A stretch of 27,605 bases of DNA. Origin: a virus. The translations under genes and the position numbers were made by a program. The notes beneath the pieces are model-generated. The model saw nothing but the letters and a program-made list of their open reading frames with translations. It did no database searches and was not told the DNA's origin. Numbering within the stretch: the first letter of the stretch is position 1; each line of letters begins with the position of its first letter. The DNA lies in IMG/VR virus record IMGVR_UViG_3300008050_000236, positions 1 through 27,605 of that record; one strand, 5' to 3'. Below, one piece after another: positions 6,404 through 27,448 of the stretch.

Positions 6404-9400
6404 TCACCCCAATATCCTGAAGTTGTGGTAGATGCTTCTGGAAGAGAAACCCCATTGCTCGCTATGGTCGAGTCTTGCCATATATGGTCGATTTAAATGA
6501 ATGTTGTCCTTTCCTGGTTTTACACCCCAGCACTTGATACGACTGGTTACATTGTTCTCATCGATGACTTCGACGACCCAATAGGTCTTGCCCTTCTTTG
6601 TCTGACGGGCAGTGACTTTGCGAGGTATAAACCAAGCGGCACCGAGGGCAGAATCAAAGTCGGAAATCGGTGGGACACCGAGTTCTCTAAGTTCCTTGGT
6701 GATACTATCGTCAACAACCAAGTGCAGAGGGAAGACACCAGTCAGATTTGTGAGATTCTCGATCTTTTCCTCCTTCGAGAAATCGCCCTCGGGTTTGTAC
6801 TTCTCAATGTTCTCTGTGAGGTCTTTTTCTTTTCTGGGGCGTTCAACGGCAACTGTTGTCCAAAAGTGTTTTGAACCAGAGAATCGGTCATCCTTTAGGC
6901 AATCTAGCGCATGCGACCGGACCAAGACATCGAGTGCCTTCTTGTTCAACTTGCTGTACACCATGTCGTCATTGAAGAGGAACTCTTCAACATTCTTGAA
7001 TGGGCGGCCGGCAAAGATCTGATCGATGGCGGAGTTGCCCAAGCCTTTAACTGATGTCAAGGGTTGAATCAATGTCGTCTTGTCTTCGGAAAACTCCCAC
7101 ACTTTACCAGAAGTGTTAACGTTGAGCGACTGAATGTTGTATCCTAGCGACTTCGCAGTGTTGATTGCCGCCTCTTTGCGACCTTCTGGTTCTTTGTCGA
7201 GGAATGCTGCCATCCACTCTGTCTGATGGTAGTTCAACAACCAGGCACACTGATAAGACAGGGTCGCATAGGAAATCGCATGGGACGCATTGAAACCGTA
7301 TCCTGAGAAGAACTCCATCTTCTTCCAAAGATCGTCAGCATCTTCAACTCGGATACCCTTGTCTTCACACCCGGCAATGAACTTCTTGCGAATTCGCTCA
7401 AGGTCCTTGGCACCCTTGCCTGTCCCCTTCTTTGTGAGAAGTTTACGAAGCATGTTGCCCTCGTCAAGAGAGACACGGCGACCCAACTTGTGAGCAAGAA
7501 GTGCCAACTGTTCCTGGAAGATGATAAACCCATAAGTATCCTCTAGACACTCTTTGACAACTGGGTGAATATATTCAATCTCTTCTGGATTATTCTTCGC
7601 CTTTACAAAGTGGTCGTGGACATTCGCAGACAGCGGGCCAGGACGATAGATAGCGGTGATTGCAGCGAGATCGACAAGACTTCGGGGTGCGACATCTTTA
7701 CAGAACTTCTGTGCACCATGCTGTGTAAACTGGAACACACCTGCCCATTTGCCCTCATGGAAAACACTCTCCCATACGGACTGATCTTCGAAATCGATGA
7801 CATTGGGGTCAAGATGCTTGTCGTAGTAGGACTTTACATCTTCGAAGGTTACATTGTCCATTCCATGCTTTGTCTTCAAGATGTGGCGAATGGCACCTTC
7901 AATCATTCGAAGGGATGCTAGTCCGAGGATGTCGAACTTAATAAATCCCATTGGTTCAAGGTGTCGGACATTCATGCCCTCAGACCAAGGAGTTTGACGG
8001 ACACCACCGGAGGCGATGAGCGGCATGTAGCGGTCAAGGTTTTCTCCAACAAGCACCCCACCTGCATGACGAGAACACGAACGGACAGAGCCATAAAGTC
8101 TCAAGATGTGAGTCTTGATGTGTGGATACTTCGACAGAAAACCGCGAAGACTATCTGAGTACTCGATCAGTTCCTCGAAGGTTGGAGCATACACACCAGC
8201 AGTGATGTTGTTTGCTGCCTTGGCACGTGGTGTTGCCTCGGAAAGCATTCGACTGGTGACCTGGTTAACCTCAGAAAAGTCGATCTTGTAGAACTTGGAA
8301 ATATCCTTGATGAGAGAGCGAAGTTGTAGTGTGTTCCAGTTTGAAATCGGAACAACAACATTATCACCCCACTCGTTAATCAACAGATCCTTGAGCTCCA
8401 TCGGGTCGGCGACATCATAATCAATATCGGGATAGTCAACTGCATCTTTGCGAAGGAATCTCTCAAACTGAAGATTGTACTTGATTGGATCAATCTGAGT
8501 AATGTTGAGACAGAAGGCGACGAGGGAACCGGCGGCGGAACCTCGACCTGCACCAACAAGTTGTACCTCTTGTGCCTTGTCGGAAATTGCCTTCATGGTA
8601 AGAAAATACTTACTGAATCCGCGAGACGAGATGACATCGAACTCTCTCTCGATCCTCTTCTCATATTGCTTATCGCCTGAGAATCCTCGGAGTCTCATTC
8701 CTTCCTGTGTGTACGCCCAGAGTGCTTCGTCTGCAGTGCAATCGGCAGGGACGACGAAGTCAGGAAGTCGGACTGTGTTCTCTGGGAAGAATGCTTCTAT
8801 CTTCTCTTGAGCAATCTGATGTGTTCGCTCGACACTCTCAATGAGTAGCTTCTCGTCATACTCGACCCCTCGTGGGAACAGAGGTTTGTCGTTTTCACGA
8901 TAAATCCAACTTTCTGGTTTGATGTACTTGCGAATTGCTTCGACCATCTCATCACCATTTTTGGGATAGAGTTCGCAGCGAGTCGCATCGATAGAGTCGG
9001 GGAGAGTGGTTTCCTCAAGTCCCCCCTTGGACAGCCAGCCAAGTTTCTTGTAAAGTTCCCGGTCTTTCCAAGAGTCCTTGTCGGGATAATGACTGTCCGA
9101 TGTGGATACGAGTTGGATGCCTAACTCGCCACACACCTTGATAACAAACTTATTGATGGCGTGCTGATCGGGAATGGCATTCCATTGCACCTCTCCATAG
9201 AAGTTGTCACCAAAGATTTCTTTAAAACGGGTTGCGGTGTGGGTCATCGCCTCGATGACTGCTTCCTCGCCCTGTTCGCGGTTTTTCCAATAATCACTGG
9301 CGAATACGCCGCCCATGCATGCACTGGAAACAATAATACCCTCCTTGTGTGCTTCGAGAGTGTCGAAGTCAAGGCGAGGGTAGCGATAAAAATTCTCCGG

Positions 9401-9868
9401 AGTATAAGACTTGGAGATCATCGTGAAGAGATTGGTCAGACCTTTTTGATTAGTGGCAATAAGAACAAGATGAGAACGACGAGAAAGGATATCTTTAACA
9501 ACACTCTTACTGGCTTCTTCATCTTCGACTGTGGTCCCCGTAGCTTCGGCATCTTTTTTTGCCCTCTTCTTATCTAGTTCTGCGGTTGCTTTTTCTTTGT
9601 GCCATTCTTGCAAACTAGGAACAAAATATGTTTCGCAGCCATAGATTGGTTTGAAGTTCTTGCCGGCATCGTGCATCTTCTTTGCATGAAGAACTTGATA
9701 TGCAAGGCCGTTCATATTGCCATGGTCTGTGAGAGCAAGGGCATCCATGCCACTTTTATATGCTGAGTCCATGTGCTCCTGTGGATACCCAAGGGCATCA
9801 AAGGGAGAGCCCGCAACACTGTGTGCGTGAAGACCAACATACTTAACTTTTGGGGACAATCTATCCAT
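6404..9868 (-). CDS. dnaE: DNA polymerase III alpha subunit, DnaE-type (family C) with intact PHP domain
   Basis: 1154 residues from ATG 9868, chosen because AGAGG lies 8 bases upstream and the promoter start point falls after the earlier ATG at 9904. It copies DNA as a family-C replicase. The PHP domain (1-265) keeps all metal ligands expected for an active site: H14, H16, D24, H49, E79, H133, C184, D258 and H260, so it may proofread. Polymerase motifs are GRGSAAGSLVAF (441-452), PDIDYD with D481 and D483, and FDILGL with D646. A helix-hairpin-helix (VKGLGNSAIDQI) and a C-terminal OB-fold-like region follow. Length equals bacterial DnaE. An insertion of charged residues (about 88-130) lies within PHP. 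No clamp or clamp loader is in this window. Confidence 0.95.
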   Translation of the reverse strand: MDRLSPKVKYVGLHAHSVAGSPFDALGYPQEHMDSAYKSGMDALALTDHGNMNGLAYQVLHAKKMHDAGKNFKPIYGCETYFVPSLQEWHKEKATAELDKKRAKKDAEATGTTVEDEEASKSVVKDILSRRSHLVLIATNQKGLTNLFTMISKSYTPENFYRYPRLDFDTLEAHKEGIIVSSACMGGVFASDYWKNREQGEEAVIEAMTHTATRFKEIFGDNFYGEVQWNAIPDQHAINKFVIKVCGELGIQLVSTSDSHYPDKDSWKDRELYKKLGWLSKGGLEETTLPDSIDATRCELYPKNGDEMVEAIRKYIKPESWIYRENDKPLFPRGVEYDEKLLIESVERTHQIAQEKIEAFFPENTVRLPDFVVPADCTADEALWAYTQEGMRLRGFSGDKQYEKRIEREFDVISSRGFSKYFLTMKAISDKAQEVQLVGAGRGSAAGSLVAFCLNITQIDPIKYNLQFERFLRKDAVDYPDIDYDVADPMELKDLLINEWGDNVVVPISNWNTLQLRSLIKDISKFYKIDFSEVNQVTSRMLSEATPRAKAANNITAGVYAPTFEELIEYSDSLRGFLSKYPHIKTHILRLYGSVRSCSRHAGGVLVGENLDRYMPLIASGGVRQTPWSEGMNVRHLEPMGFIKFDILGLASLRMIEGAIRHILKTKHGMDNVTFEDVKSYYDKHLDPNVIDFEDQSVWESVFHEGKWAGVFQFTQHGAQKFCKDVAPRSLVDLAAITAIYRPGPLSANVHDHFVKAKNNPEEIEYIHPVVKECLEDTYGFIIFQEQLALLAHKLGRRVSLDEGNMLRKLLTKKGTGKGAKDLERIRKKFIAGCEDKGIRVEDADDLWKKMEFFSGYGFNASHAISYATLSYQCAWLLNYHQTEWMAAFLDKEPEGRKEAAINTAKSLGYNIQSLNVNTSGKVWEFSEDKTTLIQPLTSVKGLGNSAIDQIFAGRPFKNVEEFLFNDDMVYSKLNKKALDVLVRSHALDCLKDDRFSGSKHFWTTVAVERPRKEKDLTENIEKYKPEGDFSKEEKIENLTNLTGVFPLHLVVDDSITKELRELGVPPISDFDSALGAAWFIPRKVTARQTKKGKTYWVVEVIDENNVTSRIKCWGVKPGKDNIHLNRPYMARLDHSEQWGFSSRSIYHNFRILG

Positions 9869-9902
9869 AATTCGAACCTCTTTCTTAAAATTAGCAGTCT
9901 TC

Positions 9903-9931
9903 ATTATAACACAAAGACGGGATCATGTCAA
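9903..9931 (-). promoter_or_regulatory. Perfect-consensus sigma70 promoter for the DnaE polymerase
   Basis: TTGACA (9931-9926), 17-bp spacer, TATAAT (9908-9903): a full match to the bacterial housekeeping consensus. It sits in the short intergenic gap before the polymerase. The predicted start point near 9896 gives a leader of about 28 bases carrying the AGAGG ribosome site, and it argues for ATG 9868 as the true start. Confidence 0.85.
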
Positions 9932-15737: not shown

Positions 15738-17099
15738 TCATTGTGATTCTGACTTCCAGTCTTTATATTTCTCCTTGATCTTCTCTTGTTGTTCCTTGAC
15801 GGAAGTGACAAGAATAGATGATGGGGTGTCCCCTTGATATGGTAAGACCTGCAAGTCAATCCTACTCGTATCAATATACATTGGATAAACAAGGCCGTCA
15901 CGGCCGTTTCTGTTCTTTGCTACGAACATTTTACCGGTTTTGTTTTGTTTCTGATCTGCATTGCGAGATATTGTGCAAATAAAATCTGCTACAAAACACT
16001 TGCTAAATGCCTCACTAATCGCGTCTAGGTTGATGCAATCAGCATTGTATCCGGTTCTGTTTGTCTGGGATGCTGTCCAGATGGGGCACTCATATTCCTG
16101 TGCGATGCCTCTCATCTCTTCATATATGGACTCCAACTCATTCCTCTTTTCTTTCTGTGTGGAAACCGGTCTTAAAAGGTCTCCGTAATCAACAATAATC
16201 ATGTCGATAGGGGTCTCCCTCTTTCTCATCCGCTCAAGGTGATTTCTAATCGTATTGGTCGAGGCCGATTTGGTCGGATATTCTTTAACTATTAGTCCGC
16301 CAGAAATATCTTTAATCTCTTCGTAAATTTCGTCTTTCAAGCCATGCAGAGCACCAAGAGAATTCTTGGTCAGACATGCATCATATCTAGTGCCAACAAC
16401 TGTATCTGCAAGTTCCAATGTGTAGTGGACCACATGTAAACCTGCTTTGATTGCTTCTGCACCCAAGTGCACCAGTGCCATTGACTTGCCGGCACCGGTT
16501 GGGGCGACAACAACTCCGAGCTCGCCTTTTCCTAAACCTCCGGAAGTCAGAGAATCGATCTCCTTCCAACCCGTGGAAACTTCACAGCGGTGCTTGATCT
16601 TGAAGCGTTCCTCGAAGTCCTTGATGTATTCATGACCAAAGTCGTTGTCCATGCCGAGGTTCATTGCTGAATCTAGTTTCTTCTTTATCTCTTCAAACTT
16701 GCAACTTCTGAGGAGGTCGGTGCACGACAACATCGCCTCTTTCAGTTTCTGCTTCTTGCAAAAGTCAAGGGAGTGCTCTTTGATGTATGCCACATCTTTC
16801 ACATCTTCTTGAATCGTTGAAGCACGGACAAAAAAGTCTCTGACCTGTTTTTGCACTAAATCGTTCTCATTGTCCAGATCTGTTCGCAAAACAGTCTCTA
16901 GAATAGTTCGAGTTGGGTGAACACTGTACTTATCCTTGTAATTTATAATAAGTCTGCTAAAGACCTGCAGATACTTTTGCTCAAAGAAGTTTACATCGAG
17001 CACCTCAATGATCTGATCCGAAAAGACACGATCATCCATAATCAGTCTCGTGAGGTTTTCTTGGAATGATTTTCCAAATCTAGCAAAATTCTCAGTCAT
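15738..17099 (-). CDS. dnaB: Replicative DNA helicase, DnaB/gp41-type
   Basis: 453 residues. It unwinds DNA at the fork with ATP. An N-terminal helical domain (1-150) is followed by the RecA-like core: Walker A APTGAGKS (199-206), TLELADTVVGTR (about 227-238), Walker B MIIVDYGDLL (300-309), and TASQTNR (about 335-342) as the helicase Q/N motif. FFEQKYLQVF and HPTRTIL are typical of the phage DnaB N-domain. Length matches T4 gp41. It starts within the exonuclease end (8-base overlap; AAGGCGG upstream). No separate primase gene is in this window. Confidence 0.93.
   Translation of the reverse strand: MTENFARFGKSFQENLTRLIMDDRVFSDQIIEVLDVNFFEQKYLQVFSRLIINYKDKYSVHPTRTILETVLRTDLDNENDLVQKQVRDFFVRASTIQEDVKDVAYIKEHSLDFCKKQKLKEAMLSCTDLLRSCKFEEIKKKLDSAMNLGMDNDFGHEYIKDFEERFKIKHRCEVSTGWKEIDSLTSGGLGKGELGVVVAPTGAGKSMALVHLGAEAIKAGLHVVHYTLELADTVVGTRYDACLTKNSLGALHGLKDEIYEEIKDISGGLIVKEYPTKSASTNTIRNHLERMRKRETPIDMIIVDYGDLLRPVSTQKEKRNELESIYEEMRGIAQEYECPIWTASQTNRTGYNADCINLDAISEAFSKCFVADFICTISRNADQKQNKTGKMFVAKNRNGRDGLVYPMYIDTSRIDLQVLPYQGDTPSSILVTSVKEQQEKIKEKYKDWKSESQ
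15873..15901 (-). promoter_or_regulatory. Weak candidate promoter before the RNR gene
   Basis: GTGACG (15901-15896), 17-bp spacer, TATATT (15878-15873), inside the helicase end about 160 bases before RNR ATG 15714. -35 is 4/6 and -10 is 5/6. Confidence 0.25.
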
Positions 17100-18126
17100 T
17101 TGTGAGGTCCGCCTTGGTTGAAGTTTTGACCTTGTCTGCCATGGAATATCTTTTCATGCGAGTATACAACTCCTCATGACGTGCAGTTGCGATGTCGTCT
17201 TGCCTTTTCATGATTTCAATTGAAGTCTTATCGAATGACATGTCCATTTCCCTGATTGTCTCTTTTATGATCTTGGTCGAACTATATGGGATGTTTGGAG
17301 CATCAAGTTGCATCATGCCATAATTCGTCAGGATCAAGTTCCTATTATCTATTATACTATCATATATTTTTAATTTGCCAAGGTTTTTCTCACATTCCTC
17401 AAAAATATCTTGAAGATTGTAGTCCTTTCCTTCCGAGAGGTAAGCGAACCTTTTTGCAATCTTTCCCAGACCTACACCTGGGGCGCCTGGGAGGTTGTCG
17501 GACTTGTCGCCTGCAATCGCTCTTGCAACTGCAAAATTGCATGGATGAATACCTGATTCTTCAGTTATTGCATCCTGATGTACAAGCTCGGCACGACCTC
17601 CCGTTTGGGGTCTATAGATCAGTGTGTCGATGTTCCCTAAAGAACCTTTTGCAAGTTGATAAAAATCCTTGTCAGAAGAATAGATGACCTTCTGCCAATC
17701 AGCAAAGTCTTCCATCTGCACAACATAAGAGATTACATCATCTGCCTCAACATTGTCAATCATTATTTGATGTATGGGCATTTTATCAACATACTCAAGC
17801 AAACGAGTCTGTTGCCAGAGATGATTTGCCATGTGCTGCTCTGTCGTTAACTGACCACGGGCGAAGCGGTTCAATCTCCCTGCAGGTTTGCGTCCCTTTT
17901 TGTACCCAGGGTTTATCTTTCTCTTGCGATGGCTGCCGCCGGCCCCATCCCAGATCAAACATATCTTATCTGGATCCAGTTCCTTGCAAACCTTCTGAAT
18001 AGAGTTCAGTGTACCGACAAGACCGCCGACATGACCGTTTTGGGAAACTGCAGGGTTGGCTTCAAAGTTTCTACGAAACATGTTGGAACCGTCGATTACC
18101 AGTATTCTATTTTTCTTACTCGACAT
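17092..18126 (-). CDS. 5'-3' exonuclease / flap endonuclease (PIN-like plus H3TH)
   Basis: 344 residues from ATG 18126, with GGAGG 9 bases upstream; the start overlaps the recombinase end by 11 bases. It should remove RNA primers and 5' flaps, as T4 RNase H or the Pol I 5' nuclease does. Metal ligands: D12 (VIDGSNMF), D60 (IWDGAGG), E127/D129/D130 (VEADDV), D152/D154 (SSDKDF) and D207/D210 (GDKSDN). NLPGAPGVGLGKIAKRF (211-227) is the helix-3-turn-helix DNA-binding motif. The C-terminal half (230-344) is helical and charged. It stands alone rather than fused to a polymerase, which fits with the minimal family-A polymerase upstream in the same operon. Confidence 0.92.
   Translation of the reverse strand: MSSKKNRILVIDGSNMFRRNFEANPAVSQNGHVGGLVGTLNSIQKVCKELDPDKICLIWDGAGGSHRKRKINPGYKKGRKPAGRLNRFARGQLTTEQHMANHLWQQTRLLEYVDKMPIHQIMIDNVEADDVISYVVQMEDFADWQKVIYSSDKDFYQLAKGSLGNIDTLIYRPQTGGRAELVHQDAITEESGIHPCNFAVARAIAGDKSDNLPGAPGVGLGKIAKRFAYLSEGKDYNLQDIFEECEKNLGKLKIYDSIIDNRNLILTNYGMMQLDAPNIPYSSTKIIKETIREMDMSFDKTSIEIMKRQDDIATARHEELYTRMKRYSMADKVKTSTKADLTND
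17351..17381 (-). promoter_or_regulatory. Weak candidate promoter before the helicase gene
   Basis: TTGGCA (17381-17376) and TATAAT (17356-17351) with a 19-bp spacer, inside the exonuclease gene. -10 is perfect but the spacer is long. Confidence 0.25.
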
Positions 18127-19249
18127 CCTTCTCGTCCTCCCCGTAAAAATCTTTGGCGGTTCCTTCGCGATTTGCAAATTTGCGGACCACTTCTTCGTTA
18201 AAGATTTCCATTACGGAGATTCTGAATTTTTCTTCCTTCATTTTTTCGTTCCACTGCTTGGATTGGAACTTTTCCTTTGTGCCGTCACTGTGGGTCAAAC
18301 TATACCATGCACCTGCTGATGTCATCTTGTCTGATTTTCCTTTGATCGCCTCAAAGATGCTCGCATCATCCTCAATAAAGACCTCGTCACCCCACATGAT
18401 CTTGAAGAATGCCTCACGACCTTCAGTGCCGAATCTGGATTTCTTGATTTTCGCTTTCGTTTCTGAACCGATTTTGAAACCATTGTCATCATAGATGTAT
18501 GATGCTTTTCCCTTTCTACCAGTCAGGAAAATTCTTAAACTGGAGGAATAGTGCATTGACTTGCCACCTGGAGATATATATGGGTTGATCATTGCGTCTG
18601 CCATGTCCCGAGTGATATTTGTCTTTAACTGGTTCAAGACCAGAAAGGTGCTGTTTGTCTCGCTCAGGGGAACAGTTAATTTTGCCATAGCTTTTGAGAG
18701 AATTCTAGCTTTTACGCCGATAGATTCTGATGGGTTGTATGTGCCGGCGACATCCAGTTCCGTTGGAGTGTTCGCAAGTGAATCCCAGATGAAGACCACT
18801 TGTTCATTACCTTCTGTCAAGATTGTCTCAATTGTCTCAAAAACATTCTCAACAGAGGTCGGAGTGACTCTAAGAAAATTATTCGGATCGATTCCTACTT
18901 TTTTCAAAAAATTGGAATCCAAGGCAGCTTCGGAATCAAAGTAAATAACACCGAGGCCGCTGCGGTTAGCATTGGCGGCGACCTGTGCAGCAATGTAAGA
19001 TTTTCCTGAACCTTCTAGACCGCACATTTCTGTAATTCTTCCGACTGGGATGCCTCCCATTTTGCCTCGGGCGATAACACCGTCAAGCCATGTACATCCG
19101 GTCGATATCCAATCTTGCACATCCGAAGGGTTGGTGTCGGAAAGATCTGCAGCGACAGTCATCCCTGCTTTCTTATTTAATACCGATTTAATACCAGCGA
19201 TACCCAGCTTGCCGGGTTTGCTTCTCATTTTCTTAACTTCTGTTGCCAT
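18116..19249 (-). CDS. recA: RecA/UvsX-type strand-exchange recombinase
   Basis: 377 residues from ATG 19249; GAGG is 8 bases upstream. It forms filaments on single-stranded DNA and drives homologous pairing, needed for recombination-dependent replication. Walker A GLEGSGKS (77-84), YFDSEAAL (103-110), Walker B VVFIWD (151-156), LNQLKTNI and the ISPGGKSMHYSSSLRI region fit the RecA core. The C-terminal part (about 290-377) is acidic and differs from bacterial RecA, as in T4 UvsX-like proteins. It follows tRNA-Gly and is followed directly by the exonuclease, so recombination and repair genes share an operon. Confidence 0.93.
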   Translation of the reverse strand: MATEVKKMRSKPGKLGIAGIKSVLNKKAGMTVAADLSDTNPSDVQDWISTGCTWLDGVIARGKMGGIPVGRITEMCGLEGSGKSYIAAQVAANANRSGLGVIYFDSEAALDSNFLKKVGIDPNNFLRVTPTSVENVFETIETILTEGNEQVVFIWDSLANTPTELDVAGTYNPSESIGVKARILSKAMAKLTVPLSETNSTFLVLNQLKTNITRDMADAMINPYISPGGKSMHYSSSLRIFLTGRKGKASYIYDDNGFKIGSETKAKIKKSRFGTEGREAFFKIMWGDEVFIEDDASIFEAIKGKSDKMTSAGAWYSLTHSDGTKEKFQSKQWNEKMKEEKFRISVMEIFNEEVVRKFANREGTAKDFYGEDEKDVE

Positions 19250-19270
19250 TATAATACCTCTCTTAAAAAA

Positions 19271-19346
19271 TGGAGCAGGAAACGAGAGTCGAACTCGCAA
19301 CATTCTGCTTGGAAGGCAGACACTCTACCAATTGAGTTATTCCTGC
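19271..19346 (-). tRNA. tRNA-Gly (anticodon UCC), CCA encoded
   Basis: 76 nt. Acceptor stem GCAGGAA/TTCCTGC, D arm ACTC/GAGT with AATTGGTA loop, anticodon stem TCTGC/GCAGA with loop CTTCCAA (UCC), T arm GCGAG-TTCGACT-CTCGT, discriminator T and CCA 3' end. It reads GGA and GGG codons. It lies between the SSB terminator and the recombinase gene, with no promoter space of its own. Confidence 0.97.
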
Positions 19347-19376: not shown

Positions 19377-20141
19377 TTAGGCATTAAGAAGATCGTTCAA
19401 CTGATCCTTAACTGTGCCCGAGGTAGTCGGCGGAGTGTTGTTACCATACTTGGCAACCTCACTTGCTGATGCCTCTGCTGACTCGTCTCCCGACAAGTGT
19501 GCATCGAGAATTGTTTGAACCTCGGAGGGGTCCTTCTTCTCGAATAGAGTGTCCAAATCCGGAACAGTGTCGAGAATCTCCGCACATTGTTCTGGACTGG
19601 CATCTTCACAGGCGGCAGAAGACTTGCGCTTTGGTGTCAACTTTGTCTGTGGAAATGACTGACCTGCTGCCTTGCCATAGTGCAAGTCAAGATCAGTACC
19701 TTCTTGTACATCCGTGATGTCCCCGTACTCAGGGTTCAAAACGAGAGTGAGTAATGTTTCATATGCCATTTTGCCATATCCCCATACTTTAACTCCCAAG
19801 TTTTCCTCGCCACGGACCAACACCGGAGAAAAGAAGCGCTGTCTTGCCGTCAATTCCTTTGCGGTCTTGACACTGTCCTCGTCGCCGTCTCGGTAAAGTT
19901 TGGATGCGAAATCGCAAACCGCACATGTTTCACCAAAGTTCTTCTTTGGACACAAGAACCCGCCGTTATTTCCAACATTATAGTGGAAGAAGTAATCCTT
20001 GAAGGGGTCTCCATCCTTTGTTGGGATAATGCGAATCGTTTGGTTGCCGTCAGATGGGCGCCAGAAGTTAGAACTTCCGCCTTGTCCCTTCGTAGTCAAC
20101 TTAGTCAAACGATCTCTCATTTTGCTCATATCAATAGCCAT
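19377..20141 (-). CDS. Single-stranded DNA-binding protein, T4 gp32-like
   Basis: 254 residues from ATG 20141, chosen for AAGGAG upstream; a longer start at 20183 would lie across the promoter leader. It coats ssDNA at the fork. The N-terminal basic patch (DRLTKLTTKGQ) matches gp32's cooperativity region. SNFWRP and TIRIIP open the OB fold, and a zinc site is formed by H53, C64, C73 and C76 (HYN...CPKKNFGETCAVC), the same His-Cys3 order as gp32. The C-terminus is acidic and flexible and ends DQLNDLLNA, likely for partner binding. Two promoters lie upstream (20202-20230 and 20407-20435), and a strong terminator follows, so it is probably highly expressed as its own unit. Confidence 0.9.
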   Translation of the reverse strand: MAIDMSKMRDRLTKLTTKGQGGSSNFWRPSDGNQTIRIIPTKDGDPFKDYFFHYNVGNNGGFLCPKKNFGETCAVCDFASKLYRDGDEDSVKTAKELTARQRFFSPVLVRGEENLGVKVWGYGKMAYETLLTLVLNPEYGDITDVQEGTDLDLHYGKAAGQSFPQTKLTPKRKSSAACEDASPEQCAEILDTVPDLDTLFEKKDPSEVQTILDAHLSGDESAEASASEVAKYGNNTPPTTSGTVKDQLNDLLNA

Positions 20142-20201
20142 ATTATTTTTCTCCTTGTAAAGACACTGGGCAAATTTCCCCAAATGCCTGGTGGTTGTTT
20201 A

Positions 20202-20230
20202 ATGTTAACACAAAACCTAGACTGTGTCAA
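20202..20230 (-). promoter_or_regulatory. Sigma70-type promoter immediately before the SSB gene
   Basis: TTGACA (20230-20225), 17-bp spacer, TAACAT (20207-20202). The -35 overlaps the TGA stop of the FtsZ-like gene. The predicted leader of about 55 bases ends at ATG 20141. Confidence 0.65.
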
Positions 20231-21063
20231 GTTGTTTTCTGTATCATCGCTGATGATTGGATACAGAAAACTTGAGGTTCCTCGTAAGATGTGGAATACA
20301 CCCGATAAGAAATCCTCTGTTCAGCATGTCGCTTAGAATCAACCTGTTCTCTGATCTTAGAAATAAGGCCGTTGTCGTTCCTAAGTTGATTCTCATTTAT
20401 ACCATAATAGTACACTCTTTCTTTGATGTTGTCAAGTGGAAAGAATGCTTTTTCTTCGCCGGCGGTAAAATCGACCAAGCCAAGAGTCATGATGCGAGAA
20501 TAATCAATCTTATCCGAGTCGGTGCTGAGTACAGGGTTTGAATGCTCGAAGTAGTAAATTAAATTTAAAGAGTTCACGATATACCCGCGAAATGCCTCCT
20601 CATAACCGATCACGGGAACATTGCCAATGGCCTTTTCTATGTCTGCAACATTGGCAAGCATAACACCTGCGATCATGCCAGAGCGTGCGTATTCCTGCAA
20701 AACATTGAAGACTATTCTCTCGTTGAGGCGAGTCTGCTTGTTGAGGTTGCGGATGTCTGGTTGAATATATAAGACCGTGACCTTCTGATGGTTCATGTGC
20801 TCAAGGACACGAAGTGTTATTGCGGATATCGATTCTCCTCCGGAGACGAGTACAAGACTTCTGCCAGACATACCCTTGAAGAAGTAAGACAAACCTGGGC
20901 AGTTGTTCTCGTATTTCTCTGGTGACTTTTCTTTTTTGATGCCGCGAGTCCGCTTGGTCTTCTCAAGACCATGGTCGATCTTGTAGACATCATAGTTTTT
21001 AAGTTTTTCGAAATCAGTTGCGAGTTCGCAACCGAGTTTTCCAATTCCAACAATGTTTATCAT
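20227..21063 (-). CDS. Diverged FtsZ/tubulin-superfamily-like protein (fold inferred)
   Basis: 278 residues. Block order parallels the FtsZ GTPase domain: first strand and loop INIVGIGKLGCELATDF (2-18; FtsZ IxVxGVGGxGxN), LVLVSGGESISAITLRVLEHM (70-90; FtsZ GGGTGTGAAP helix), KVTVLYIQPDIRNLNKQTRLNE (94-115; FtsZ VVTxPFxxEGxxR), VMLANVADIEKA (134-145; FtsZ IVIPND), and DKIDYSRIMTLGLVDF (184-199; FtsZ NxDFADVxxIM). The tubulin signature GGGTG[ST]G is replaced by SGGESIS, so GTP binding is doubtful. It could instead be a general Rossmann-like phage protein. Ribosome site GGAG; ATG follows the polymerase stop directly (TAAATG). Replication-operon location suggests a role in DNA handling rather than division. 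Confidence 0.6.
   Translation of the reverse strand: MINIVGIGKLGCELATDFEKLKNYDVYKIDHGLEKTKRTRGIKKEKSPEKYENNCPGLSYFFKGMSGRSLVLVSGGESISAITLRVLEHMNHQKVTVLYIQPDIRNLNKQTRLNERIVFNVLQEYARSGMIAGVMLANVADIEKAIGNVPVIGYEEAFRGYIVNSLNLIYYFEHSNPVLSTDSDKIDYSRIMTLGLVDFTAGEEKAFFPLDNIKERVYYYGINENQLRNDNGLISKIREQVDSKRHAEQRISYRVYSTSYEEPQVFCIQSSAMIQKTT
20407..20435 (-). promoter_or_regulatory. Second sigma70-type promoter upstream of SSB
   Basis: TTGACA (20435-20430), 17-bp spacer, TACTAT (20412-20407), inside the FtsZ-like gene. -35 is perfect and -10 is 4/6. It would make a longer SSB transcript. Confidence 0.45.
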
Positions 21064-22278
21064 TTAAACTCCAAGTCCTATTTTCTTCATATTTCCAAAG
21101 TTCTTGCCTGCCGAGGCACCAACCCTGATCTTCCCGAATCTCGTGTTCGAAAAAAGATCCACTAGATCCATTATACCATCTAGATCTTCTTTTTTAAGAT
21201 CAATTACAATAGAATCGTGCAAACAAAATTTAATGAAACTCTCAGTACCCTGAAGGGTTTTATAGACCTTTGCCATCTGCTCGAAAACCATATCTGCAGT
21301 AGTTGATTGCACAAGATGATTCAACGCATGGAAATCGTCAGTCTTAATCGTCCTGCCCATTGGGGTCGTAACTGAATCGTTCTGGCGGTTGTAGAAAGAG
21401 GTCAGGATCTTTTCCCTGTCGTACAGTTTCTCGATGCCTTCTCCAATATCGGATGTCTTCGAGCCATAAAGCCAGGAGAGTACGAGTTCTTTCGCTTTTT
21501 CTCTGGATACGGCCAGATTTGATGCATGCCATTGATGTATGTCCCCCTCTGGTTGTTCTTTTTGTGCCAATGCGAGTAAAACACGAATCTCTGCAGCATT
21601 GTAATCGAATTCTAAGAGAAGATCATTCTCCGGCAAGATAATTGATCTGAACCCTTTGTCTAAGTTAAGTATCGGGAAGCTTCCGGTTTTTACTGCCAGT
21701 CTTCCTGTTTTTGTTTTGAAGGGGTCATAAACAACAAAGTTCGACCTCCTTCCCTCTTTAAAGGATTTCAAAAGATCTCTTGCACGTTGCTTATGTGCCT
21801 GCTCTCTCAGGGGTGCCATATCAAGGGTTATTCTTCGTTTCTTTATATCGGCGACCATAACGACGAGATCCTTCAATAAATCGTAATTTTCGGGTTTAAC
21901 TTGCTCTGCGAACACGGATTTAACGATTCTCGTCTTGAGGTCACAGAACTCAGTCAAATACTGCTTGGGGATGAGGTCAAAAAAGCAGTTTTCACTTAAA
22001 TCAACCTTTGCTTCGACAAAAGAACTAAAATATGCTTGCATCCGTTTGTTCACCTTGTTCCACTTTGCCTTAAGACCCTTTGGGCATACCTCGTCCAGGG
22101 TCCTGCCACCACAATAAAGGTTGGCGAACTCTACACTTGATGCTCCGATTGTTGTAAGGGAGTCTGTATGTGACCAGGTGTGAGAAAGACCGTGTGGAAT
22201 ATTGTCAAAATGCAATTCACCATCACAGTACACCCCGACACACTCTGTTTTGTCGTCAAGGGTTACGAAATGTTTCAT
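21064..22278 (-). CDS. polA: Minimal family-A DNA polymerase (PolA palm/fingers only), Leu at position 762
   Basis: 404 residues, far shorter than Pol I (about 928). Motif A: LEFDYNAAEIRVLLAL (222-237, D225). TGRLAVKTGSFPILNL (191-206) is the template-binding block. Motif B: R259, K263, L267 and Y271-G272, matching R754, K758, F762 and Y766 of E. coli Pol I, so this is a Leu762 type. Motif C: CLHDSIVI with H354-D355, and Ser in place of the usual Glu. NHLVQSTTADM (320-330) is the family QgtaAD block. No 3'-5' or 5'-3' exonuclease domain is present; a separate 5' nuclease is encoded downstream. The N-terminal about 170 residues match no motif. Ribosome site TAGGTGG. It is the second DNA polymerase in the window besides DnaE. 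Confidence 0.9.
   Translation of the reverse strand: MKHFVTLDDKTECVGVYCDGELHFDNIPHGLSHTWSHTDSLTTIGASSVEFANLYCGGRTLDEVCPKGLKAKWNKVNKRMQAYFSSFVEAKVDLSENCFFDLIPKQYLTEFCDLKTRIVKSVFAEQVKPENYDLLKDLVVMVADIKKRRITLDMAPLREQAHKQRARDLLKSFKEGRRSNFVVYDPFKTKTGRLAVKTGSFPILNLDKGFRSIILPENDLLLEFDYNAAEIRVLLALAQKEQPEGDIHQWHASNLAVSREKAKELVLSWLYGSKTSDIGEGIEKLYDREKILTSFYNRQNDSVTTPMGRTIKTDDFHALNHLVQSTTADMVFEQMAKVYKTLQGTESFIKFCLHDSIVIDLKKEDLDGIMDLVDLFSNTRFGKIRVGASAGKNFGNMKKIGLGV
21170..21197 (-). promoter_or_regulatory. Candidate promoter before the FtsZ-like gene
   Basis: TTAAAA (21197-21192), 16-bp spacer, TATAAT (21175-21170) in the end of the family-A polymerase gene. -10 is perfect and -35 is 4/6. Confidence 0.35.
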
Positions 22279-22285
22279 TTACCAC

Positions 22286-23467
22286 CTAAAATAGGATTTG
22301 GGGTTTTATGCCGTTTTTATAAGAGAGTGCAGAATTGAACTCTTCATTAATATACACCAAAGCAGAGATGATGTCAAGGTTTTTGTTCATCGATATTGCT
22401 TTTGTAACGATCTTGTCGAACTCTCGTTGAGTAGTTTTTTTACTCACCTCGTGTGCTTTAATGAAAGTGTAGAGTCGCAACCACTTGGAAACACCACCCA
22501 TTGCCAAGCATTGCTCAAGACCGGTGGGATTGAATGTTTCCCTCTGGCGCATCTTGTGGGTTGTTTTTCCGTTCTTGTGACAGATGTCAACCAAGGGGTC
22601 GAAATCACCAAGGAGTTCTGGGTATAAGGATGAGACAAACATAACCAATTCATTGAACTCTGCAAGGAGAGGTTCAACTGCTCTTTTCTTGAAGAAATCT
22701 TTCAAATTCAATATATCACGGTTTTTCATGTATTCCTGCATTTTTGCGGAACTGAAGTTGACAACCAGTCGGAAGGGTGAGTGGCGATCCATGATAAAAC
22801 CATGATTTTGTGCTTCACGAGCAAAAGCATTGTAAGATAAGTCGCCAAGGTACTTCTCAACAGATATTGCGTCATCACCAAATTTCTCTTGTGCCACAGA
22901 AAATGCCAAACCGGTAAATCCAGGGTCAACTTGGCGTGAAACCCAGTATCTGGAAAAGGTTATTGGAAAGTCTGGCAAATTGAGTGCTGCGAATTCAGCA
23001 AAAACGGGCAAAAAGTCAGAAAAGCGTTCAATGCGGGATCTTCTGAGTGGTGATTCTAGAAAAGTGTCTCGAAAACCAGTCTTTGCTGAGTTTAGATAGT
23101 CTCTGTACTCTCCTCGCCAATCGTTCTTGAGGGCAACGGGTTCAAAACCTGCAAAAACACTGCCTTTACGGATTCCACCATTCTGTAGACCGTTTTTGAT
23201 TGCCTCTTTAAGTTCAGAAATTGCGTCGTCAACAAAGTCAAAAGTTACATACCCGCCAACGGCGCTAGGTTTCATGAAATTAAGGTTTGGGCAGACAACT
23301 TTGTTCTCTAGGTTCATTTTTCCATAGAGTGCCTTTTTGCGCAAATCGATAAACGATACACTTTGGTCGACCTCTGCTGTTTCGTCCATATAATCCTCCA
23401 TTATACCTCTGGAGTAATATGCAGCACGCGCACCCATGTTATTTTTGCCTTTTGGATTTAATACCAT
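22286..23467 (-). CDS. Conserved-looking phage protein of unknown function
   Basis: 393 residues. I recognise no domain. A weak GGGG ribosome site precedes ATG 23467; internal starts at residues 11 (MGARAAYYSRG), 23 and 27 are possible, and the last has GGAGG close upstream. The protein is soluble and mostly helical with many aromatic residues (FSDFLPVFAEFAALNLPDFPITFSRYW, written in part here). It has no metal or nucleotide motif. It lies 4 bases after the hub-like gene and 7 bases before the family-A polymerase, at the junction of structural and replication genes. A virion structural role and a DNA-metabolism role are both open. The 3' end carries a promoter for the polymerase. Confidence 0.7.
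   Translation of the reverse strand: MVLNPKGKNNMGARAAYYSRGIMEDYMDETAEVDQSVSFIDLRKKALYGKMNLENKVVCPNLNFMKPSAVGGYVTFDFVDDAISELKEAIKNGLQNGGIRKGSVFAGFEPVALKNDWRGEYRDYLNSAKTGFRDTFLESPLRRSRIERFSDFLPVFAEFAALNLPDFPITFSRYWVSRQVDPGFTGLAFSVAQEKFGDDAISVEKYLGDLSYNAFAREAQNHGFIMDRHSPFRLVVNFSSAKMQEYMKNRDILNLKDFFKKRAVEPLLAEFNELVMFVSSLYPELLGDFDPLVDICHKNGKTTHKMRQRETFNPTGLEQCLAMGGVSKWLRLYTFIKAHEVSKKTTQREFDKIVTKAISMNKNLDIISALVYINEEFNSALSYKNGIKPQILF
22349..22377 (-). promoter_or_regulatory. Sigma70-type promoter for the family-A polymerase operon
   Basis: TTGACA (22377-22372), 17-bp spacer, TATATT (22354-22349), in the coding end of the preceding gene. -35 is perfect and -10 is 5/6. The polymerase ATG is about 65 bases downstream of the expected start. 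Confidence 0.6.
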
Positions 23468-23470
23468 TTA

Positions 23471-26400
23471 TTAATTCCCCGTAAACTTGCATTCTAGCAC
23501 TGTTTCGTATCTGCCTTCGCTGATACTGTTGGATACACTGATGACAAGAAAGTAACCAACCAGACCGAGGTCTTTTAGGTGTTCTTCTGTACCGAAGGCA
23601 GCAGGGTTGATATAAACAACCTGACCCGGTATCACAAACGGCGTTCCGTGCAGTGTTACCGTGGCATCGTATACGCGACGTGAGATTGGTTGACCCTTCT
23701 TGTCTGCAATCTGCAGGGTCATTGCCTCGTAAGTTGCAGATGATACGGTTTTAAGAGAAATGTCCTTAACTGCACCTGCTTCTGCGCCAACCTTGAGGTG
23801 ATAGATGCCATCTTCGAGGTCCTGCTTCTTTGTCTTGTTTGCCCTGGTGACTTCACCGCTGTCCTTCCCGTAAATGAACAAATAACTCGTTGTACTGTTC
23901 GCTTCGTGATAATTTGACTTATGAGTTACTATTGGTAGTTTACCATTTTCTTTTAACTCTGTCAAGTAAACCAGGTTGTCTGCATTTGGACCTGTCTTGA
24001 GGTCAGGACTCCAGAGCGCGAACTTTCCTGTTTCACCCTTCTTCCCCTTGATGTCGTCCCTTGTGACAAATTTAAAACCAAGAGCATCTTTTTTATCGTT
24101 CTTGTTCTCAATCGTTGTGATAAAACTTGAGCGGCCGCTGGCGGTGATTTGCTGTTTTTTCATAAGGACATGCTCGCTATCCACTGTAAACTGCTTCTGG
24201 ATTAGTTCCAAAAAGGAATCTCTGAGGAAGTTCGATAAAGTGTAGTTCTGTTTTCCGCCTTGAACGATTTTGTCGTTGAAGTGATCCAAAAGAAGGTTTA
24301 CAGAGATTGGAATGTCTGCAATGTTGATTCTGTGCTTAAGTGGGGCAGCGTTAGTGTCCCCACGAAGATTCGCAAGAGACCTTTCAGTAACCGAATCACC
24401 CTGCATCTCTTCTGGCACTAGCATTTCCTCGATCTCTTCGGGTGTAACGTCGAGGAATCGTTCCGCGATCTCGTGAGGTTCCAGATCGGTTGTTGCGGCG
24501 ATTTCGCGAACCTTCTCCCTTAACGCTGCGGATTCATCAACATATTCCTGCTTAATGACCAAAGGTGCGGCGCCGTGGTAATTGATATTTTCCAGAAAAT
24601 CAACAGGTCCAAGGGCAATGCGGACGTCGTTAGCATCAAACGGATCTTGGAGTTTGTTTTTGAGAAAGGAAGCAATTGCGTGCTCTACAATGTCGCCGAA
24701 ATACACATACTTAATGTAGTAGTTCTCGTTGTCGTAAGTTGGCAAAAGGGCGCTCTTGATGGCATTAAAGTTCTCTTGGGCCTTCTGGCGAGTATCCTCG
24801 TTTTCAGGTAAATTAACTATGGTCTCAGAGAAACTCTTATTGCGGTGTTGCTGGCGAGATTCAAAGTACTCTTCTGCATGTGAACCGAGTTCCCCTGCTA
24901 GTTTTTTGGTGACAATGCTAACAGGGGAAGCATGAAGCTTTTTTAAGATCTCTGAAGCGAAGTCTCTGTAAATTATTTTTGTACTCAATTCTGATGCAAA
25001 AAGTTCATAGGCATCCGTTCCCTTTAGATCAAACCTGAACCTTCTATCACTCTCGGCGATGCCTGCTTCGAGGTTAATCTTTTCTGTTCTCTTCTTTTCA
25101 ATTTCCTTGCCCTGTTGTTCAATGGTCTTACTGGTGGCATTTGCCGCATACGCATCTGTTTGCTTGGTTGCTTCTATTTCGCGTGCCAGTCGGCCGACCT
25201 TTTTCTTATCAATATCGACCTGTTTTCGTGCCAATTTTCTCTCTTTAAGATATTTCCCTGCGTTGTCTTTTGCGGTGGGGAGTTGCCCCAAGACAGATTT
25301 CTTGGGATCTTCAAAATCAGAATTTAGGCGTCCGGTGTAACGAGCACCGATGACGACAGTCCCTGTGTCTTGCAGGTCTATTTCATAATTCATCAAATAG
25401 AGGGACATTTCCGTTCTCATGCTTTTGATGACATTTTTAAGGTCTTCGTACCCTTCCCATATGCCGTCACTTTCGTTAACCGAGTATTCAACAACTGTTC
25501 TCAGGGCGGTGGAGGTCTTTTCGTCTCTCACGCCGTCGTCTTGGGTGTTGAGGAAACCAGGAATCATCAGGTCTGCGAATTTATACTTTGTTGACTTGCC
25601 GTCTTTGTCGATAAAAGTTCGAGGTTCATAAAGGACGTCGATGTTTTGTGCTCGGAACTTGATGTCAACCATGATAATCGTGGATGCCTGATATGGATCT
25701 TTTCCTGTGTAACTCCAATCAAAAGATGTTACATTAACACCGTTGGAGGTCGCATACAGGTTTTTAAGAATACCCGCAGAGTTGCCGGCACTGGTGATGT
25801 CGAAATACTCTTCAAATTCATACTCTAGTAAGTTCTTGGACTTGTTTGGAGAATCAACCTGATCTTTGTAAATCCTGACTCTCGGTATTAGTGCGGAGTA
25901 GTGAATTGGTCGAAGATCCTCAAAGAATGCTGCCATGTTCTTTGGTGCAGAGACGACGGAACCAATGTCGTCAAGGCGAACTTCGAGGTCGGAATCTTTA
26001 AAATCGAAACATGCAAAGTTCTTGTGTATTTGCCCCTTTTCTTTTCTCAGTTTTCTTCTTCTTTTTGCCAGTTCTAAGGCGTTATTGAGAACAAGTGCTG
26101 CTTCTGATTCTTTGTCTTTTTTGAATTCATCTAGTTTTCTTTTTCGCTCTGCTGCTTTTGCATGGGCTGCGAGTTTTTCTGCTCTAGTTTCTGAAGGTTT
26201 TTTGCCTGTTTTATCAAATTCTTCCCTGTTTTGCTTGTTCTCTAACGCGGCGAGGTCGTCCTTTGTCATGCTCAAGTAGTAGGCAGGAAAATTTGCCGTT
26301 ATGCCAGCTGGTTCAACATGAACGTATGATTCGTCCTCTGCTTTATTTAAATTTGGAAATGTAGAAATGCCGGTGGGCACAAGTCTTTTCAAGTGACCTT

Positions 26401-27106
26401 TAATGCTTTTTAGAGTTGCATTGCGCCAATCTCTTCGAGCCGATCCGAGTGGGTCATCGAGGAAGGTGATATTGCCCTGGGCGGGGAGGTCGGTGGGTGG
26501 GTTTTTAGTTGCTGCTTTGGCGATCCTTTCCAGTTTTGCTTTGGAGACAGGGATGATCTCATACACTCTAAAAGAAAAAAAGAAAGTTGCAATGTTCGTC
26601 CCAACATTTGCACCGGACTGCTCGTCGAGTTGGTTGGCGGGATCGACAAAATCTTCTCTCCATGTCTCTGGTGAGTGCCAAGTTTTGCCTCTCCCCAGTT
26701 GAGTGTACCCTATGTTGCCCACTTCTGCGGGGCCCTGAGTGTGTGCACGAAGCATTTCTTGACCAATGTAATTAACTTTATACTTGTCAGAGTGCCCATT
26801 GACTCGGGGAATTAAATTTTTAGCAGCGTATTTAAGGACCTCTTCGCGTGATTTGGGTTTGTCATTCAGTTCCTTCATGCGGGTCTCGTTGCCGACCTGG
26901 ACCACAAGGTGGTAGATCTTGCATTTTGAGGCAGCATCGGGCACGATGCCCTTAAGACCTGGATCTGGAATCATTTCCGCTGGGGTCTCGACATAGACCC
27001 CTCTATAATAAGTGTCGCTGCCTTCATATGTTTCGTTGTCGCCGCCGTCGGTGAGGTTGGTGACACTCCATTCTTTATCTGTAAAGGGTGTAAAATCTAA
27101 CGACAT
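23471..27106 (-). CDS. Large tail/baseplate protein, hub-like C-terminus
   Basis: 1211 residues, the largest gene here. No enzymatic motif is visible. Two charged, probably coiled-coil regions lie at about 285-357 and 619-682. The C-terminus has VTLHGTPFVIPGQVVYINP (about 1152-1170) and LVGYFLVISVSNSISEGRYETVLECKF, the pattern seen at the end of baseplate hub proteins of the gp27/gpD type, where a beta domain closes the ring. It follows the LysM/gp53-like gene by 3 bases. I infer a baseplate hub or inner-tail role; it is much longer than T4 gp27 (391 residues), so extra domains or a fusion are likely. Ribosome site GGAAGG. A promoter lies 130-158 bases upstream. Confidence 0.7.
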   Translation of the reverse strand: MSLDFTPFTDKEWSVTNLTDGGDNETYEGSDTYYRGVYVETPAEMIPDPGLKGIVPDAASKCKIYHLVVQVGNETRMKELNDKPKSREEVLKYAAKNLIPRVNGHSDKYKVNYIGQEMLRAHTQGPAEVGNIGYTQLGRGKTWHSPETWREDFVDPANQLDEQSGANVGTNIATFFFSFRVYEIIPVSKAKLERIAKAATKNPPTDLPAQGNITFLDDPLGSARRDWRNATLKSIKGHLKRLVPTGISTFPNLNKAEDESYVHVEPAGITANFPAYYLSMTKDDLAALENKQNREEFDKTGKKPSETRAEKLAAHAKAAERKRKLDEFKKDKESEAALVLNNALELAKRRRKLRKEKGQIHKNFACFDFKDSDLEVRLDDIGSVVSAPKNMAAFFEDLRPIHYSALIPRVRIYKDQVDSPNKSKNLLEYEFEEYFDITSAGNSAGILKNLYATSNGVNVTSFDWSYTGKDPYQASTIIMVDIKFRAQNIDVLYEPRTFIDKDGKSTKYKFADLMIPGFLNTQDDGVRDEKTSTALRTVVEYSVNESDGIWEGYEDLKNVIKSMRTEMSLYLMNYEIDLQDTGTVVIGARYTGRLNSDFEDPKKSVLGQLPTAKDNAGKYLKERKLARKQVDIDKKKVGRLAREIEATKQTDAYAANATSKTIEQQGKEIEKKRTEKINLEAGIAESDRRFRFDLKGTDAYELFASELSTKIIYRDFASEILKKLHASPVSIVTKKLAGELGSHAEEYFESRQQHRNKSFSETIVNLPENEDTRQKAQENFNAIKSALLPTYDNENYYIKYVYFGDIVEHAIASFLKNKLQDPFDANDVRIALGPVDFLENINYHGAAPLVIKQEYVDESAALREKVREIAATTDLEPHEIAERFLDVTPEEIEEMLVPEEMQGDSVTERSLANLRGDTNAAPLKHRINIADIPISVNLLLDHFNDKIVQGGKQNYTLSNFLRDSFLELIQKQFTVDSEHVLMKKQQITASGRSSFITTIENKNDKKDALGFKFVTRDDIKGKKGETGKFALWSPDLKTGPNADNLVYLTELKENGKLPIVTHKSNYHEANSTTSYLFIYGKDSGEVTRANKTKKQDLEDGIYHLKVGAEAGAVKDISLKTVSSATYEAMTLQIADKKGQPISRRVYDATVTLHGTPFVIPGQVVYINPAAFGTEEHLKDLGLVGYFLVISVSNSISEGRYETVLECKFTGN

Positions 27107-27109
27107 TCT

Positions 27110-27448
27110 CTAGCCTTCCCACAAACTTAAAATGTCTTCCAGTGGAAGTGGAATGTATATCTTGTCCCCCAAGGCAACATGCCCTTCGGTTGGTTTCTTG
27201 TTGTACCAAGCGATAATCCACCAGAGTCTAGGATCATTATAATACGTATTTGCTAATTTGTAAAATCTATCTCCAACATTCCACATATGTGCCTGAACTT
27301 TTAATTGATCATGGTTTGCCGTGGGGATGGATTGCTGTCTTGTCGTCATGTAGTGGTACAGGCGATCTTTAATGTCTCTATCCTTGAGAATCTTGTTCAT
27401 ATTCTTTTTTCTTGTGACCTTGACGGTCGACTTATCATATCTAGACAT
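27110..27448 (-). CDS. LysM-like baseplate wedge protein (gp53-like)
   Basis: 112 residues. The C-terminal half reads GDRFYKLANTYYNDPRLWWIIAWYNKKPTEGHVALGDKIYIPLP (about 57-100): a LysM-like pattern (GDtlykIAxxYyxdpxxWwxIaxxN, then lxxGxxlxIP), as found in small phage tail and baseplate proteins such as T4 gp53. The N-terminal half is basic (KVTRKKNMNKILKDRDIKDRLYHY). In baseplates LysM-like folds serve assembly, not always peptidoglycan binding. Ribosome site GGGAGG is about 10 bases before ATG 27448. The stop is 3 bases before the hub-like gene. Confidence 0.8.
   Translation of the reverse strand: MSRYDKSTVKVTRKKNMNKILKDRDIKDRLYHYMTTRQQSIPTANHDQLKVQAHMWNVGDRFYKLANTYYNDPRLWWIIAWYNKKPTEGHVALGDKIYIPLPLEDILSLWEG
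27236..27264 (-). promoter_or_regulatory. Sigma70-type promoter before the large tail gene
   Basis: TTTACA (27264-27259), 17-bp spacer, TATAAT (27241-27236), inside the LysM-like gene. Box sequences equal those of the promoter at 2182-2210. Confidence 0.55.

Follow-up and report, generated by a model that had tools for sequence, protein, structure and literature searches.

A phage protein family with a predicted tubulin fold and a degenerate GTP site, encoded within a DNA-replication module

The minus-strand open reading frame (ORF) at positions 20227 to 21063 of the window (the whole 27,605-nt stretch of viral DNA analysed here, IMG/VR record IMGVR_UViG_3300008050_000236) encodes a protein whose predicted structure makes it nearly certain that it adopts a complete two-domain tubulin fold. 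We use the name TUB for the phage protein family of this ORF. Based on its fold, its degenerate GTP site and its position among replication genes, we propose that TUB is a non-cytomotive pseudo-tubulin and a subunit of the phage DNA-replication complex with a structural or regulatory role. This function is inferred, and we give the proposal an even chance of being correct.

The TUB gene was located in a block of replication genes on the minus strand, for which the following features were assigned:

21064..22278, minus strand: polA, family-A DNA polymerase, 404 aa (Pfam DNA_pol_A PF00476, 1e-11)
20227..21063, minus strand: TUB, tubulin-fold protein (predicted) with a degenerate GTP site, 278 aa, ATG start
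20202..20230, minus strand: promoter-like TTGACA-17-TAACAT with TG, ahead of gp32 and overlapping the TUB stop (consensus match only)
19377..20183, minus strand: gp32-type single-strand DNA-binding protein (SSB; PF08804, 9.8e-14; phrog_1192, 3.9e-26)
18116..19303, minus strand: UvsX/RecA recombinase (phrog_97, 1.7e-53)
17092..18177, minus strand: 5'-3' exonuclease (PF02739, 3.1e-24)
15738..17099, minus strand: DnaB-type replicative helicase (phrog_19, 1.7e-66)

The polA stop codon abuts the TUB start codon in the window (GTTTAA followed directly by ATG), and a GGAG stretch resembling a ribosome-binding site was present upstream of the TUB ORF. From TUB onward, the order on the same strand was gp32-type SSB, UvsX/RecA, 5'-3' exonuclease, DnaB and ribonucleotide reductase. 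A first-pass annotation of this DNA had placed the gene within a replication operon, flanked by a DNA polymerase and an SSB; this placement was correct, and the order holds across the TUB family. Judging from the promoter-like site at 20202-20230, polA-TUB and the genes from gp32 onward may form separate transcription units. The space separating gp32 from the likely UvsX start contains a minus-strand tRNA-Gly (TCC) at 19271-19346 of the window; the long UvsX ORF call overlaps this tRNA. The window phage also carries a DnaE-type polymerase III alpha (6404-9904) in addition to the short family-A polymerase (21064-22278).

As a single sequence, the window TUB gave no usable match in Pfam, PHROGs or the PDB, and tblastn with the window TUB and three relatives (30–38% identity to the window protein) gave no match in 50,697 named phage records. 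A single-sequence scan of IMG/VR yielded 57 TUB relatives with identities of 28–83%, and a search with conserved motifs confirmed 224 TUB loci, the best 80 of which were retained. No curated sequence family matches the window TUB, no published description of TUB was found in the literature searched, and TUB is an undescribed phage family. The sole cellular match in a scan of one genome collection was a metagenome-assembled genome (MAG) of candidate division WOR-3 (L241, CP070664.1), in which a short polA-TUB-gp32-UvsX phage piece lies between bacterial genes of the chromosome; this fragment could be a genuine relic or could stem from a false join in the assembly. Compared with its two nearest relatives, TUB had Nei-Gojobori dN/dS values of 0.065 and 0.035, within the range of the adjoining SSB, recombinase and polymerase. 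These ratios are approximate because dS is near saturation, but at the level of sequence comparison they show strong purifying selection on TUB, and together with the IMG/VR relatives they establish that the window ORF is not a chance ORF. The TUB contigs examined reached about 203 kb, and a T4-type prohead protease was present in seven of seven long TUB contigs tested.

The AlphaFold2 model of the window TUB, calculated from a 38-member alignment, had a mean pLDDT of 92.5 and a pTM of 0.91. The order of elements in the model was S1-T1-H1-S2-S3-S4-T4-H4-S5-H5-S6-T6-H6-H7-S7-S8-H10-S9-S10. An N-terminal Rossmann-like GTPase domain, a long helix H7 and a C-terminal domain in tubulin order, which together define the tubulin/FtsZ fold, were all present. 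The best PDB matches of the model in Foldseek were TubZ (2xka, 9.1e-11) and FtsZ (7ojd, 1.1e-10); all 50 matches listed were TubZ or FtsZ, and 550 PDB chains matched with E at or below 0.001. VIA-align matched the model to CetZ 3zid (Z 24.0, 3.1 Å, 256 residues aligned), TubZ 2xka (Z 23.1, 3.3 Å, 275 aligned) and FtsZ 2r6r (Z 22.6, 3.6 Å, 267 aligned); Z was above 21 in 50 of the 50 rows listed, among which only TubZ, FtsZ, CetZ and tubulin occurred. Because the alignments span model residues 1-278, both domains match and not the Rossmann half alone. The closest predicted viral structure was an uncultured phage 'FtsZ cell division GTPase' with 13% identity. The five blocks in FtsZ order that had been read from the sequence alone are thus present in the predicted structure, and the check suggested in the same annotation, structure prediction followed by Foldseek, placed FtsZ and TubZ on top with agreement in strand order and in both domains.

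At the sequence level, homology to tubulins provided weak but consistent support, and the case rests on the fold. The TUB family profile found TubZ RepX with an E-value of 0.026, with the T6 'DN' and the H7 Asn aligned, and Pfam Tubulin was touched by 4 of 38 TUB members (best 0.03). Pairwise hhalign E-values were 8.5e-5 against TUB2, a second phage tubulin described below, and 5.8e-5 against PhuZ, the latter over the N-terminal 97 columns; with an enlarged TUB alignment and low mact, hhalign gave no useful alignment against either FtsZ or TUB2. The top PDB sequence match of the TUB profile was the NAD domain of KtrA (E 0.0048, N-terminal 86 residues), and hence the first loop alone could not separate tubulin from other Rossmann folds. 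An identity as a KtrA-like NAD domain was rejected, as the KtrA match is limited to the first loop and is contradicted by Foldseek and VIA-align.

The nucleotide site and the surrounding elements were then located on the window gene as follows:

21022..21054, minus strand: T1 loop, residues 4-14, IVGIGKLGCEL; G6, G8 and G11 retained in nearly all relatives
20812..20844, minus strand: degenerate T4/tubulin signature, residues 74-84, SGGESISAITL (93-row alignment)
20677..20709, minus strand: end of H5, residues 119-129, FNVLQEYARSG; most conserved stretch of the TUB family
20635..20658, minus strand: start of T6/H6, residues 136-143; in the window, Val replaces the guanine-contacting Asn139 of the family (HMM alignment to TubZ 'LIDN')
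20587..20604, minus strand: start of H7, residues 154-159, YEEAFR; the family consensus Y-Y-D-x-L-N (guanine stacking/contact) is lost in the window
20494..20544, minus strand: T7 region without helix H8, residues 174-190 (predicted model)

The T1 loop was well preserved, with a consensus G-[LI]-G-x-A-G-C that is nearly invariant in the 93 TUB rows (G8 in 93 and G11 in 91 of them). The T4 loop was changed throughout the family to G-x-G-x-[IV]-S-[GA], compared to the tubulin signature GGGTG[ST]G, which is not met; the glycine in its second half (position 79) was replaced by Ile or Val in 82 of the 93 rows. Between S3 and S4 the TUB model contained only a short helix (48-53), and T3/H3 was not recognizable as such. 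The model was also free of helices between H7 (154-173) and S7 (191-197) and between S7 and S8. Acidic residues near T7 were common and not invariant (D/E at position 184 in 63/93 rows and at position 187 in 55/93), and the combination of a T7 catalytic acid (NxDxx[DE]) with H8 was not found in TUB. The C-terminus ended only a few residues past the last strand. Hence, helices H3, H8 and H9 are reduced or absent in the predicted structure. In tubulin and FtsZ, T3 senses the gamma-phosphate and T7/H8 gives the catalytic acid to the adjoining subunit, and the T3, T7/H8 and H9-type regions include flanks of lateral contacts. At the end of H5, N120, L122, Q123, E124, Y125, R127 and S128 (NVLQEY[AT]RS) were invariant or nearly so in the 93 rows.

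The window sequence belongs to a clade of eight distinct sequences with 100/100 support and a long stem, and this clade differed from the remainder of the family in the guanine pocket. Outside the window clade, Asn139 of T6 was found in 76 of 84 rows, Asn159 of H7 in 81 of 84, and an aromatic residue or His (Y/H/F/W) at position 155 in 81 of 84; the corresponding numbers inside the clade were 0, 1 and 0 of 8. The T4 position G77 was Glu in all eight window-clade rows. The equivalence of Asn139 and Asn159 to tubulin Asn206 and Asn228 was taken from profile alignment and secondary structure rather than from a superposition of coordinates. Since the pocket residues are kept elsewhere in the family, guanine base recognition was probably lost secondarily in the window clade, with the fold, T1 and other invariant residues maintained, an inference drawn from the alignment only. 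The tubulin-signature position had been assigned to SGGESIS in the first-pass annotation, in agreement with our reading of the window (S74-G-G-E-S-I-S-A81). The accompanying description of a degraded GTP loop is right for T4 but incomplete, because the reduction extends to T3/H3 and T7/H8 and the window clade no longer has the pocket residues.

A Pfam Tubulin search of the long TUB contigs revealed the second phage tubulin, TUB2, of which two examples are:

L134:937-2145, minus strand: TUB2
L135:988-2028, minus strand: TUB2

TUB2 proteins were 346–402 aa long, with an intact T1, a GGGTGS-type T4 and invariant D234 and D237 near T7. In IMG/VR 223 TUB2 loci were confirmed, with about 60% conservation, and a search of the named phage collection gave no match. 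TUB2 was modelled by the same protocol as an internal control for the helix loss in TUB. Its model (pLDDT 90.6; VIA Z 32.3 to TubZ and 31.6 to CetZ2) displayed two helices between S3 and S4 (89-111), H8 at 235-243 and H9 at 263-273. Nine long contigs encoded both proteins, one of these with only a partial TUB2 gene at the contig end, while TUB2 was undetected in four TUB contigs of 184–191 kb and was present without TUB in G029 and G039. As each was found without the other, TUB2 was rejected as an obligatory partner of TUB, and its non-detection in the 184–191 kb contigs suggests that TUB needs no tubulin partner there. The two genes were tens of kb apart and TUB2 was unlinked to the replication module; in the one contig checked (L134), it adjoined the T4-type prohead protease. 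A link between the loss of the TUB pocket and the absence of TUB2 was also considered and rejected, as L092 has TUB2 yet has lost both Asn residues.

The module order polA-TUB-gp32-UvsX-exo-DnaB-(RNR) was observed in every TUB locus with enough flanking sequence, with extra genes inserted in some. The end of polA overlapped or directly met the start of TUB, or lay no more than 15 nt from it, in 44 of 80 distinct loci, and many of the remaining loci had a constant polA-TUB spacer of about 309 nt with a MazG-like ORF. This ORF of about 103 aa (e.g. in L065, L066, L008, L011, L032, L112 and L121) was judged MazG-like by eye. Other ORFs between polA and TUB, also judged by eye, were a 562-aa ORF resembling a GHKL-type (Hsp90/histidine-kinase-like) ATPase at L003:3174-5000, and dual-specificity phosphatase-like and NUDIX hydrolase-like ORFs at L035:3330-5003. 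Pairwise distances of TUB correlated best with those of gp32 (0.75) and polA (0.68), compared to 0.52 for polA-gp32 and 0.51 for gp32-UvsX. These correlations are suggestive only, because shared ancestry contributes to them, and for a small number of pairs no aligned columns overlapped.

The same polA-gp32-UvsX-exo-DnaB module was found in Flavobacterium phage immuto, Microcystis phage Mel-JY01 and the uncultured phage LR756508. In these three phages no TUB was found beside gp32, and the ORFs between polA and gp32 were other, mostly short ones. No TUB was found beside gp32 either in the 80 IMG/VR loci nearest to Mel-JY01, some of which stop short of polA. Because related phages have the module without it, TUB appears, from gene content, to be a lineage-specific gain in this conserved replication module. 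Upstream of polA, window positions 22286-27448 were 89–97% identical to L059, with a dS of 0.18 for x393; the identity of x393 between the window and L058 was only 41%, and polA, TUB and gp32 were 82–86% identical to both L058 and L059. From these identities, a recombination boundary near the polA start is probable for the window relative to L059 and L058.

A pseudo-tubulin that acts by protein contacts in the replication complex best accounts for four features taken together: the fold and T1 are kept, the catalytic and contact elements are absent, purifying selection is strong, and translation is apparently coupled to that of the polymerase gene. In this proposal, the viral replication machinery would have taken over a cytoskeletal tubulin as a component without motor function. 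Most TUB members would still bind guanine nucleotide, as a static ligand, and the window clade would lack base recognition. Without the T7/H8 catalytic face, the usual GTP hydrolysis in trans would not be expected, and a canonical dynamic protofilament would be unlikely. TUB would be translated together with PolA through start-stop coupling and would dock on PolA, gp32 or another part of the replisome via the end of H5, which from its conservation is the foremost surface candidate for TUB contacts; docking would organise or regulate replication. On this inference, TUB probably serves the PolA/SSB replication complex of the phage as an adaptor. A wider generalization is put forward only tentatively: the tubulin fold would provide a dedicated non-GTPase replisome part, as an adaptor of polymerase and SSB, and some of the phages concerned would in addition retain a separate tubulin with an intact signature. 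In the literature searched, no virus was described in which a pseudo-tubulin and a true tubulin share out tasks in this way. There is no direct evidence of binding, and synteny and coupling can reflect co-regulation only. The repurposed non-GTPase filament or scaffold offered in the first-pass annotation likewise rests on inference. That H8 and H9 are missing is inferred from predicted models, and a static, nucleotide-free TUB polymer is not excluded, as some protofilament-forming tubulins tolerate odd loops.

We regard it as unlikely, though worth serious consideration, that TUB is a working cytoskeletal polymer whose GTP-bound, slow or static filament positions or clusters replicating phage DNA in the manner of PhuZ. 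The fold is the same as in FtsZ and TubZ, T1 is kept, and the pocket Asn residues are present in most rows outside the window clade. A precedent exists in AlpC, an actin-like cytoskeletal protein of a prophage, on which efficient replication of the viral DNA depends (PMC4446434). The exchange of the T4 glycine for Ile or Val, the reduction or absence of H3, H8 and H9, the missing C-terminal tail, the non-invariant T7 acids and the pocket loss in the window clade all weigh against such a filament.

The asymmetry of the losses, with the nucleotide-side loops partly kept and the T7/H8 side gone, would fit a protein that docks on filament ends via the one retained longitudinal face and so caps or antagonizes host FtsZ, or the TUB2 of the same phage, with host division blocked or a phage filament tuned as the outcome. 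Phage proteins that stop FtsZ are known. A fixed place between polA and gp32 in every lineage is, however, unusual for a host-takeover gene, and TUB was found in contigs without detectable TUB2; we consider this role unlikely, though still possible. Our confidence is very low indeed for a heteropolymer of TUB and TUB2 in which, by analogy to alpha/beta-tubulin, one subunit would be catalytically competent. Although nine long contigs carry both genes and TUB2 retains T1, the signature and both invariant Asp residues, each protein occurs without the other, the genes are far apart, and TUB2 lies beside the prohead protease in the contig checked. Finally, TUB might be a Rossmann-type protein unrelated to tubulin, binding a nucleotide or NAD and FtsZ-like at the first loop only. 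The KtrA match and weak TrkA_N matches in 11 of 38 TUB members might suggest this reading, which resembles the 'new Rossmann family' offered in the first-pass annotation, but it can be practically dismissed at the level of the fold, given the whole-protein tubulin match over both domains.

If the pseudo-tubulin proposal is true, a tubulin fold performs a different job inside DNA replication with its catalytic face dropped. The broad, pocket-bearing TUB family versus the window clade, and TUB versus TUB2 of one genome, provide testable contrasts. Few viruses are known to have tubulin-like genes, and TUB extends their number by many phages that seem not to be represented in culture collections.

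Tubulin relatives are known as GTP-driven filaments. TUB has the two-domain fold and strand order in common with FtsZ, but lacks T3/H3, the GGGTGTG motif and T7/H8. The highest VIA Z was obtained for haloarchaeal CetZ (3zid, 4b45), at only 11% identity; CetZ has an intact signature and all helices. TubZ of the Bacillus plasmid type (2xka, 4ei7) resembles TUB in T1, and most TUB members align with its guanine-pocket DN and H7 Asn. The identity is nevertheless only about 12–14%, and TUB lacks the GGGTG signature, H8 and the C-terminal tail. Moreover, the neighbours of TUB are polA and gp32 and not a TubR-type partition gene; as these two are the immediate neighbours in all TUB loci with flanking sequence, there is no adjacent tubR.

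PhuZ of the phiKZ-like nucleus-forming jumbo phages is likewise a phage-borne tubulin fold with a relaxed T4 (GGASGS in phiKZ). The first-pass statement that known phage tubulins keep the signature is therefore not strictly valid, as PhuZ mostly has GG[AG][ST]GS, although the glycine in the second half is retained. In contrast to TUB, PhuZ keeps this glycine and the invariant Asp near T7, and has a C-terminal extension, whereas TUB lacks the tail that PhuZ and TubZ use. Among the matches listed, PhuZ was found in phages of 230–320 kb, compared to the about 203 kb reached by the TUB contigs examined. By sequence, TUB is not a member of the PhuZ family: tblastn gave no match in the phage collection, which includes 179 PhuZ-matching records, and the profile comparison with PhuZ was weak. 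Dynamic PhuZ filaments centre the phage DNA (PMC4244570), and a comparative study of 224 jumbo phages mentions two distinct FtsZ/tubulin representatives among them (PMC7824862). TUB2 belongs to the same superfamily as TUB and occurs in some of the same genomes, but its signature is intact. Because T4, T3/H3 and T7/H8 fail, TUB should not be filed as FtsZ, TubZ, CetZ or PhuZ; by its fold, it is a new divergent variant in the tubulin superfamily.
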